From NCBI GenBank assembly GCA_002221725.1, contig NJFT01000070.1, positions 62,001-126,000 on the forward strand: DNA of 64,000 nt. The letters are read 5' to 3'. The position numbers and the translations under genes are program-made. The DNA is from Scedosporium boydii (lineage: Eukaryota; Ascomycota; Sordariomycetes; Microascales; Microascaceae). Every line of letters begins with the position of its first letter. Position 1 is the first letter of the stretch. This document shows, in pieces, positions 44,720-48,678 of this stretch. The notes below the pieces were generated by a model that saw only the letters and a program-made list of their open reading frames with translations, did no database searches and had not been told where the DNA came from.

Positions 44720-47700
44720 ATGGCGAAGAAGCAGGACCCTGCGATCGCCGCTCACGTGTCGGGCCAGTCTAATAAGCCCATCTCTGCACCTCCCCATACC
44801 TTACCTGTTAGTCAGGTCATCCAAGAGCTCCATACCAACCCAAACGAAGGTCTTACTCCTGCGGAGGCTAAGCAGCGCCTCGAGGAATATGGCCGGAATG
44901 AATTTGGTGAGGAAAAGGGCGTTCAGCCCCTTAGGATTATAATGGGCCAGTTGGCCAACGCCATGACATTGGTATGTTCTTTTTTTCCTTTCTTCTTCTC
45001 TTTTGGCTGTGTTTTTCTTCTCGCTTAACTTCGATTCCTGCCTCCCACTTTTGAGCACGTAGAAGCTTTCGTATGCGCGTGGCCTCTTTGAAGACACACG
45101 AGTTAGAGATGTGATATCCTCCAAAGCTGGCTTGTATCATTTGCCTCAATGAGGAACCATGGCGAGCCCTCATTTTATTCTCTGCCGTTCGCCGTACAGT
45201 AGCTTACCATGCTCGCCCGCCACATAGGTCCTCATCCTCGCCATGGCCGCCTCCCTTGCCATCAAATCCTGGATTGAAGGCGGTGTCATCGCCGCCGTCA
45301 TAGTCATCAACGTCACCGTAGGGGCCACCCAAGAGTTCAAAGCCGCCAAGACCATGGACTCCCTACGCTCCCTAAGTTCTCCCACAGCTAGTGCCGTCCG
45401 AGGCGGCCAAACCATCGTCGTACCCACCGTCGAGATCATCCCCGGCGATATGGTTGATCTAAAGACTGGCGACACCGTTCCCGCCGACGTGCGCCTAATC
45501 GAGGCCATAAACTTCGAAACTGACGAGGCTCTCCTCACTGGCGAATCTCTTCCCGTTCGCAAGGACGCCGAGACTACCTTTGAGGCGGACACGGGCCCCG
45601 GTGATCGCCTTAACGTCGCGTACAGTTCATCTACCGTTACGAAGGGCCGTGCCCGCGGTATCGTCTTCGCTACTGGCATGTATACCGAGATTGGTCAGAT
45701 TGCTGCCGCTCTGCGAGGACACCAGTCGAGGCGCCGACCCGTCAAGAAGAAGGAAGATGGAACGGCTAATATTGGACGTTATGGAATCGCTTATACCCTT
45801 ACCGTGTACGATGCTCTTCTTCGCTTCCTTGGCGTCAGTGAGGGAACGCCGCTCCAGAAGAAGCTTTCCAAGTTTGCCATTCTGCTGTTCTTCATCGCTA
45901 TCATTTGTGCCATTATCGTGCTGGCTGCCAATAGCTTCTCGTCTAAGCAAGAGGTGGTTATTTACGCCGTCGCGACTGGTGTTTCCATGATCCCTGCATC
46001 GCTCATCGTCGTGCTTACTATTACCATGGCTGCTGGTACTAAGCGGATGGTTGAGCGACATGTCATTGTTCGAAACCTGCGAAGTTTGGAGGCTCTGGGT
46101 GCCGTTACCAGTACGTTTCTTCTCCGTCTCCACACCACCCTTTCTAAGATTCTTCAGCCACTAACAGAAGATTGTTTTGTCTTTCGCAGACATTTGCTCC
46201 GATAAGACCGGAACCCTTACCCAAGGTAAAATGGTTGTCCGAAAGGCCTAGCTTCCCGGAGTTGGCACCTTCTCCGTGGGCCACTCAAGCCATCCTTTCA
46301 ACCCAACCGAGGGTGAAATCACCCTAGCCAAGAAGCCCCCCAGGGAAATCAGTATCGCCGAAAAGGAAGAGATCATCGACCGGGAGACCGCCACTAAGGA
46401 TAACAACACCCTCGTCCAGTTTCTCAACATCGCCTCTCTTGCCAACACGGCAACCGTCCGCCGCGCCGAAGGCGACGACGACGTCTGGCACGCCCGAGGT
46501 GACCCTACCGAAATCGCCATCCAAGTCTTCGCCTCTCGATTCAACTGGAACCGACTGAACATCTCGGGCGAGGGTAACCAGTGGAAGCAAATCGCCGAGT
46601 TCCCCTTCGACTCCGACGTCAAGAAGATGTCTGTCATCTTCGAGGACGCCGCCGCCAAGCAGCAGCAATGGGTCTTCACCAAGGGCGCCGTCGAGCGCAT
46701 CATCGACAGCTGTCCCACGATCCACGTGGGCGACGAGAGCGTCCCAATGACCGAGGATATCAAGGCCGGCATCTTGGAAAACCTCGAGGCGCTGGCCCGT
46801 CTCGGCCTCCGCGTGCTTGCGCTCGCCAGTCGAACCGGCATCAGGAAAGTATCCTCCAAGGAGGAACTCGATCGCTCCGAGTTCGAGCATGGTCTCATCT
46901 TCCGTGGCCTCGTCGGCATTTACGATCCCCCGAGGCCCGAATCGGCGCAGTCTGTGAAGATGTGCCATCAGGCGGGTATTGGCGTCCACATGCTTACGGG
47001 CGATCACCCCGAGACGGCTCGCGCCATCGCCAAGGAGGTTGGCATTCTACCGAGCCGCATGCAGGAAATCTCTGCCGATGTCGCTAAGGCTATGGTCATG
47101 ACGGCCCGCGAGTTCGATAGGCTTACTGACGACGAAATCGATCAGCTTCCTCTCCTGCCCCTCGTCGTGGCTCGCTGCGCCCCCAGCACCAAGGTCCGCA
47201 TGATTAAAGCTCTCCATAGGCGTAAGCGGTTCGCCGCCATGACGGGTGACGGCGTCAACGACTCCCCTAGCTTGAAGCAGTCCGACGTCGGTATCGCCAT
47301 GGGCCAGGCCGGTTCCGATGTTGCGAAGGAGGCCTCGGATATTGTGCTTATGGATGACAACTTTGCTTCGATCCTCAACGCTGTGGAGGAAGGGAGGCGT
47401 ATGTTTGATAACATTCAGAAATTTGTGCTGCATGTGCTAGCACAGAATATTGCGCAGGCGTGTACGCTGCTTATTGCGCTGGCTTTTAAGGATCATACGA
47501 GGCTTTCGATCTTTCCTTTATCTCCCGTTGAGATTATGTGGGTTGTAAGTATCTTATCCCGCCCCAGGTCGAAGGGTCGATTGATCTTCGAAGTTATGTC
47601 ATTGACGGAATACTAACCTTGATATAGATTCTCATTACGTCCGGGTTCCCTGATATGGGTCTCGGTTTCCAGGAAGCCGCGCCGGATATCATGAGACGAC

Positions 47701-48424
47701 CGCCCCAGAACGTAAGTCTTCGGAATCGCTGCTTGCTTTTCTCACCTTTCGCACTTACTAACTTTATCGCCAGTTGAAACAAGGCATTTTCACGCCCGAG
47801 CTCATGCTCGACATGCTCGTCTACGGCCTCTGGATGGCAGCCCTCTGCCTCAGCAGCTTCGTCCTCGTCCTCTACGGCTTTGGCGACGGCGAAATCGGCG
47901 AAAACTGCAACAACCACCACTCGCCCGGCTGCGACCTGGTGTTCCGCGCCCGCGCAACCTGCTTCACGGCCATGGTGTGGTTCTCGCTCTTCCTCGCCAT
48001 CGAGATGATGGACCTCCGGCGCAGCTTCTTCCGCATGAAGCCCAAGACGAAGCACCCTTTTACGCAGTGGGCGAGAGATCTCTGGCACAACCGGTTCCTG
48101 TTCTGGTCCATCGTCGCGGGGATGGTGTCTATTTTCCCCATCCTTTACATCCCCGGGCTTAATAGGGTCGTGTTTAGGCATGAGGGGATTTCGTGGGAGT
48201 GGGGGATTGTGTTTGTGGAGACGGCGGTTTTCTTCGCTGGCGTCGAGATGTGGAAGCTGGCAAAGAGGATACACTTTAGGAGGGTGGCTAAGAAGAAGAC
48301 GGGTGGTGTGAAGGATCTTGAGTCCAGGGTCTTTGGAAGGTATTACAGCATTGGGAGGTCTGATTCGGATACGGATAATCCGTTTGTGAGGACCAAGATT
48401 AAGGATGAGAACCGGGAGGTTTAA
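44720..48424 (+). CDS. ENA-type Na+/K+ efflux P-type ATPase with an in-frame TAG at codon 399
   Basis: P-type (IID) ATPase that exports Na+ or K+ across the plasma membrane at the cost of ATP. Exons 44720-44971, 45228-46110, 46190-47544, 47628-47711 and 47774-48424 join in phase to 1075 codons, the usual ENA length. Motifs in order: N-terminal cation-ATPase segment (LTPAEAKQRLEEYGRNEF), actuator LLTGESLPV (TGES from about residue 188), membrane helix with SMIPASLIVVLTITMAAG, phosphorylation site CSDKTGTLTQGKM (Asp383), nucleotide-binding FTKGAVERI, and MTGDGVNDSP. Codon 399 (46249-46251) is TAG, in VRKA*LPGVGTFSVG, where ENA proteins carry Trp. All downstream codons are open. A protein ending there would lose the ATP-binding domain and six helices. 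Intron 1 is 256 nt, long for this genome. The stop may be edited in mRNA, a null mutation, or an error; see findings. Confidence 0.92.
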
Positions 48425-48592: not shown

Positions 48593-48678
48593 GCACTAGT
48601 GGTTTAGTGGTAAAATTGGTCGTTGCCATGTTTCACACAAGTTTCGACTAGCCCCCGGTTCGATTCCGGGCTAGTGCA
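48593..48678 (+). tRNA. tRNA-Gly (anticodon GCC) with a 15-nt intron
   Basis: The acceptor stem GCACTAG (48593-48599) pairs with CTAGTGC (48671-48677), followed by discriminator A. The D arm GGTTTAGTGGTAAAAT and the T arm CCCGGTTCGATTCCGGG match fungal tRNA-Gly(GCC) closely. The anticodon loop reads TTGCCA, then a 15-nt insert (48629-48643), then T and the 3' half of the anticodon stem (CGACT pairing with GGTCG, one G-T pair). The insert sits one base 3' of the anticodon, the canonical position of nuclear tRNA introns removed by the tRNA splicing endonuclease. The mature tRNA would be 71 nt before CCA addition. Internal A and B boxes for RNA polymerase III are present as part of the D and T arms. 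Confidence 0.95.

Follow-up and report, generated by a model that had tools for sequence, protein, structure and literature searches.

Fungal ENA proteins, the type IID Na+/Li+ P-type ATPases, are the closest described counterparts of the Scedosporium boydii gene analysed here, which shares with them their domains, the motifs DKTGT and TGDGVND, and 70–82% identity to Sordariomycete ENA proteins among the matches listed. It differs from these proteins in carrying an in-frame TAG where all of 120 homologues (the best 120 of 7353 matches) have Trp.

A second comparison is offered by the genes of Fusarium and Neurospora subject to premature-stop-correction (PSC) editing (PUK1/STK-21, RID, AMA1, and AMD1), with the S. 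boydii gene sharing their UAG at a Trp codon, open frame, and Sordariomycete host. In F. graminearum, 54 of 69 PSC genes are perithecium-specific or up-regulated in perithecia, and 34 of 47 PSC cases have similar sites in F. verticillioides, with the other 13 lacking them (PMC4817773). A TAG common to near relatives is usual for PSC sites without being required; at the ENA site no such sharing was found. In contrast to the edited genes, the S. boydii TAG is absent from the nearest relative, sits among poor flanking bases in a fold that is not robust, and is read here from genomic DNA.

Correction of UAG outside sexual tissue is recorded for the OLD-ZAO/CHE1 systems (PMC11169179, PMC12754623), whose reported targets are zinc-finger regulators, with OLD-1 also acting on other sites (PMC12754623). 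The type of correction would be the same at the ENA stop, and eight matches (L053–L060) to the OTT_1508-deaminase family, which includes the N. crassa OLD editing enzymes (PMC12754623), are present in the S. boydii genome; the targets differ, and nothing links ENA to these systems. The editing literature drawn on here is PMC11156358, PMC4817773, PMC11087585, PMC11169179, PMC12754623, and PMC7306014. A literature search found no published RNA editing in Scedosporium and no published A-to-I mRNA editing in Microascales, and the matches listed held no report of an editing site in an ENA pump or P-type ATPase, or of an ENA premature stop or pseudogene, subscription papers and the F. graminearum supplementary gene lists lying outside this scope.

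An ENA-type gene with a single internal stop

The window, the whole 64,000-nucleotide stretch analysed, spans C70:62001-126000 in a draft genome (G000) of 42.9 Mb and 442 contigs, and contains the following features.

44720..48424, + strand: ENA-type Na+ P-type ATPase gene, from spliced translation, splice sites, homologues, and Pfam domains
44720-44971, 45228-46110, 46190-47544, 47628-47711, 47774-48424, + strand: five exons of the spliced model
46249..46251, + strand: in-frame TAG, codon 399, at a column with Trp in 120/120 homologues (best 120 of 7353 matches)
46252..47544, + strand: remainder of exon 3 after the TAG, open, with amino-acid replacements not in excess on the S. boydii branch

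All four introns are of the GT...AG type, and the spliced frame comprises 1075 codons, terminal stop included, in which the TAG at codon 399 is the sole internal stop, confirming what the earlier note had read from the letters. No second lesion was found across these 1075 codons. The frame downstream is open across three exons and two introns, as that note had also claimed, although its count of 676 open codons includes the final stop, leaving 675 sense codons. The other two frames hold 15 and 30 stops over the same 675 codons, and the openness of the ENA frame is therefore not due to chance. DKTGT lies 5' of the TAG and TGDGVND, said by the note to be intact, is indeed present 3' of it, whilst of the Pfam domains Cation_ATPase_N and E1-E2_ATPase precede the TAG and the exon-3 part downstream of it carries Cation_ATPase and Hydrolase, so that the domains and catalytic motifs of a P-type ATPase occupy one frame split by the TAG.

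The tryptophan column in homologues, paralogues, and relatives

The best 120 of 7353 homologue matches all have Trp at the codon-399 column, in agreement with the claim that Trp is usual there in ENA proteins. Among these 120, the closest are annotated as Na+ P-type ATPases, and the nearest named protein, at 82% identity, is from Parascedosporium putredinis (Microascaceae, Microascales, Sordariomycetes), supporting the Sordariomycete host assumed earlier and pointing to Sordariomycetes as the source class. The genome holds three ENA-like Na+-ATPase genes, with both paralogues (on C284 and C170) having TGG at the codon-399 site; the C284 paralogue is stop-free in every matched stretch, and the stops of the C170 paralogue are confined to stretches resembling introns. 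At the DNA level the ENA locus is single, other matches being 64–79% identical, except for a 38-nt piece at 92%.

A TAG in relatives was sought with the part of the gene before the stop and with exon 3 (X at the stop) as queries, the records of the relatives resembling ORFs called exon by exon from unspliced contigs. P0128 matches exon 2 at 99% and P0241 matches exon 3 at 96%, and as each comes from a contig of 15,216 nt, we infer that both belong to the same contig and to one relative. P0241, which starts MVVRKAWLPGVGTF, reads VVRKAWLPG and thus has Trp at the site; it is the nearest relative covering the site among the seven proteins read of 120 listed. The more distant relatives P0242 and P0002 also have Trp. 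No TAG at the site was found among stop-truncated gene models or in the seven exon-3 proteins read of the 120 listed, one of which (P0297, a 97% relative) stops short of the site. The sharing of the TAG by related species, which the earlier note had put forward as a check, is not borne out by P0241.

Downstream constraint and the age of the stop

The rate at which the gene would change if unconstrained was gauged from an intron.

46111..46189, + strand: intron 2, neutral yardstick, with at least 12 of 78 nt (at least 15%) differing from the nearest relative

Over the 436 aligned codons of exon 3, four replacements are assigned to the S. boydii branch, six to that of the relative, and four are ambiguous, all in columns variable among homologues, whilst the 289 codons of exon 2 yield one, none, and one respectively. 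With P0297 as the third sequence in a 307-column alignment, the replacements number six for S. boydii, three for P0297, and five for P0241, and the share of the S. boydii branch, 6 of 14, does not significantly exceed one third (p = 0.57). Approximately 85 replacements would be expected on the S. boydii branch had the gene been unconstrained throughout, compared with the four to eight observed, and the locus has therefore been constrained until recently; the 95% bounds limit any period without constraint to 11% of the branch at most (4 observed) or 17% (8 observed), an estimate built on protein sequences and a minimum intron divergence.

These few replacements, set against the divergence of intron 2, reject an old unrepaired pseudogene. 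Judged on these figures the TAG is either young or repaired, and the constraint data fit both. The earlier argument that the clean downstream frame speaks against an old unrepaired stop is borne out by this constraint, but a very young null allele fits equally.

Local fold and bases around A46250

46238..46260, + strand: putative short-range hairpin, UCCG..AGGC-CUA-GCUU..CGGA, placing A46250 in a 3-nt loop, favoured in short contexts only

The letters of the hairpin reported around A46250 do occur at the coordinates given in the earlier note, but the hairpin proves not to be robust. The probability that A46250 lies in a hairpin loop is 0.97 and 0.67 with flanks of 15 and 20 nt, which would favour editing, but fades to 0.35, 0.02, 0.00, and 0.00 with 30, 40, 50, and 75 nt each side, which would not. 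Edited sites were folded with 30-nt flanks by Liu 2016 (PMC4817773), and at this length the minimum-energy fold leaves A46250 outside any hairpin loop, against an ensemble probability of 0.35. The folds are no more stable than those of shuffled sequences (z of -0.25, +0.42, and -1.18 for 61, 41, and 101 nt). With the 14 other UAG triplets of the ENA coding mRNA giving a mean loop probability of 0.29 (20 nt) and 0.32 (30 nt), A46250 stands above background at 20 nt and near it at 30 nt. Folded from genomic DNA with introns ignored, the control sites gave 1.0, 1.0, and 0.88 at 20, 30, and 40 nt for the TAG of a PUK1-like kinase gene, 1.0, 0.19, and 0.13 for that of a RID-like gene, and 0.05, 0.16, and 0.01 for a TAG on contig C205.

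Around edited adenosines, G, U, G, A/G, and A/G are enriched at positions -3, -2, +2, +3, and +4 (Liu 2016, PMC4817773), whereas A46250 has C, C, C, U, and U, matching none of the five preferred bases beyond -1/+1. The PUK1-like and RID-like sites both have G at +3 and +4, and so fit there. It is true that A46250 follows U, as editing prefers, but U at -1 and G at +1 are automatic in any TAG, and the remaining preferred bases are missing.

Editing background in the genome

Three DUF726 loci (five profile matches) are present in the genome. The protein of one (L050; C118:83158-84225, +) carries GHSLA where its two paralogues have GYSLG, and Met-Val where these have Leu-Asn and Leu-Asp, with Asp at +58 and His at +98 from the nucleophile Ser. 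The equivalent residues of F. graminearum Ame1 are MV500-501, S531, D589, and H629, giving the same +58/+98 arrangement (Feng 2024, PMC11087585), and the Met-to-Ser distance is 30 residues in L050 compared with 31 in F. graminearum Ame1. By these residues L050 is likely orthologous to the editing activator Ame1.

A PUK1/STK-21-like kinase gene (L045; C18:87054-87242, +) reads GRCD[TAG]WSIG, the TAG being followed by TGG and aligning to the first of the two Trp in the DWWS motif of CBK1; a UAGUGG arrangement in N. crassa is reported to be edited (Liu 2016, PMC4817773). In a RID-like DNA methylase gene (L046; C52:201479-202357, -), a lone TAG has 486 open codons before it and 252 after, with Tyr as the aligned residue of DNMT1. 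The F. graminearum rid orthologue is a known edited gene, and genes of both the PUK1 and RID types are edited in other Sordariomycetes (PMC4817773). No stop was found over profile positions 2–247 of 274 in a gene resembling SPO22, the orthologue of which is edited in F. graminearum. Given the Ame1-like protein and the candidate TAG sites in the PUK1-like and RID-like genes, editing in the S. boydii genome is possible, and RNA-seq at these sites would make editing in the group directly testable, whichever reading of the ENA stop holds.

Lone stops in kinase genes

A kinase profile search gave 141 matches, 24 of them with internal stops; the 19 with a single type of stop (8 TAG, 6 TGA, and 5 TAA) were examined, and the five with several types were left out. 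Intron candidates were found in 12 of the 19 and none in seven, by simple consensus rules that an unusual intron may escape. Four of these seven stops lie well inside the domain (the PUK1-like TAG, the C205 TAG, the C88 TAA, and the C124 TGA), whilst those of L044, L146, and L150 lie at most three codons from the start of the match and likely mark an exon edge. The C124 match (L144; C124:18291-18999, +) is a decaying copy of an Aurora-like kinase, carrying a frameshift as well as a TGA at the point where DFG is followed by SVHAPSNRR; Aurora kinases have Trp at this place. Two further genes have no intron candidate by the same rules: L148 (C88:33075-33803, -), a germinal-centre-type kinase gene interrupted by a lone TAA, and L043 (C205:49932-50270, -), an ankyrin-like/kinase gene interrupted by a lone TAG; in comparison with solved kinases the residue replaced was not evident for either stop. 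The C88 TAA, together with the C124 TGA and frameshift, shows that genes broken beyond easy editing repair exist in this genome.

Origin of the stop

The TAG is probably a recent, lineage-specific nonsense allele at the invariant Trp of one of three ENA-like genes. The truncated product would end eight residues after DKTGTLTQ, with the nucleotide-binding domain missing along with the membrane helices that come later, and the locus would therefore make no pump; Na+ efflux would be carried by the C284 and C170 paralogues, and the time since the TAG arose would have been too short for further decay. This reading is favoured because P0241, P0242, and P0002 have Trp and both paralogues have TGG, because the few replacements relative to the divergence of intron 2 indicate constraint until recently, and because other lone stops (C88 and C124) exist whilst the flanking bases and fold at A46250 disfavour editing. 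It is weakened by the arithmetic of nonsense mutation, since Trp-to-TAG, the sole class that editing repairs, would make up 5.5, 8.6, or 12% of random one-step nonsense changes in the ENA gene at transition weights of 1, 2, and 4, and also by the editing background, the lack of a second lesion, and a downstream constraint that fits a repaired stop as well. If true, the null allele represents ordinary gene loss buffered by paralogues. The weights given here to a null allele, to editing, and to an assembly error are judgements, not calculations.

That the TAG is instead a young PSC site, with the ENA pump made in sexual tissue only (or under stress, as for CHE1), is unlikely, though it is the reading that the earlier note had preferred. 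A Tad2-Tad3-Ame1 deaminase in perithecia would turn the A of the UAG into inosine, read as UGG (Trp). Part of that proposal stands, with the TAG at an otherwise invariant Trp in a Sordariomycete, the candidate Ame1 orthologue L050 with its Met-Val, Asp +58, and His +98, the PUK1-like TAG-TGG and RID-like TAG of the same genome, and the constraint on the downstream frame all consistent with it; lineage-specific PSC sites are moreover known, as in the 13 of 47 F. graminearum cases noted above. Against it, the TAG is not common to a relative 96–99% identical in protein, the fold and flanking bases are poor, and the gene product is an ordinary ion pump, for which the genome has two paralogues. The fuller version, a newborn lineage-specific PSC site in Microascales that makes one of three Na+ pumps specific to the sexual stage (or to stress), is a shade more doubtful still. 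Were the site edited, premature-stop correction would extend to an ion pump, and the site would have been caught soon after its birth from TGG. Editing affects almost 9% of the UAG/UAA triplets in the cDNA of F. graminearum (PMC4817773), and it would thus be unsurprising to find even a null allele weakly edited; only a high level of editing would argue for a functional site, a weak one being insufficient.

A single-base assembly error, the true genome having TGG, is rather improbable. The 442-contig draft and the isolation of the one base would suit such an error, but the rest of the 1075-codon frame is without lesion, and base errors are rare in consensus assemblies.

Removal of the TAG by splicing, or ribosomal readthrough of it, is very improbable. 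FgBUD14 provides a precedent in pairing PSC editing with alternative splicing of its stop-holding intron (PMC11156358). However, a branch-point-like motif occurs in 0 of the 31 GT...AG pairs (45–150 nt) spanning the TAG, none of which is plausible as a hidden intron, and an intron over the TAG would remove conserved residues. As for readthrough, UAG CUU is not known to match any readthrough motif.

The RIP-type origin that the earlier note had listed is rejected as extremely improbable: whilst a G-to-A change of TGG to TAG equates to CpA-to-TpA on the opposite strand, and 15 of the 49 possible RIP-type one-step nonsense changes in the ENA gene are of this kind, no copy exceeds 79% identity (the 38-nt piece excepted), the RIP indices of the gene (0.65 and 1.14) resemble those of the whole window (0.70 and 1.15) and fall short of the usual thresholds, and four of the six replacements peculiar to the S. 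boydii branch, as deduced from amino acids, would fit A to G and not G to A.

Two further observations concern the locus and its matches. P0161, filed as a protein of Candidatus Bathyarchaeota archaeon, has 83% identity to the ENA pump over 73% of the query, a record that likely reflects fungal contamination. A tRNA gene, reported without type, lies at 48593-48678 (+), ~170 nt past the terminal stop codon of the ENA gene, and resembles tRNA-Gly(GCC) with a short intron.
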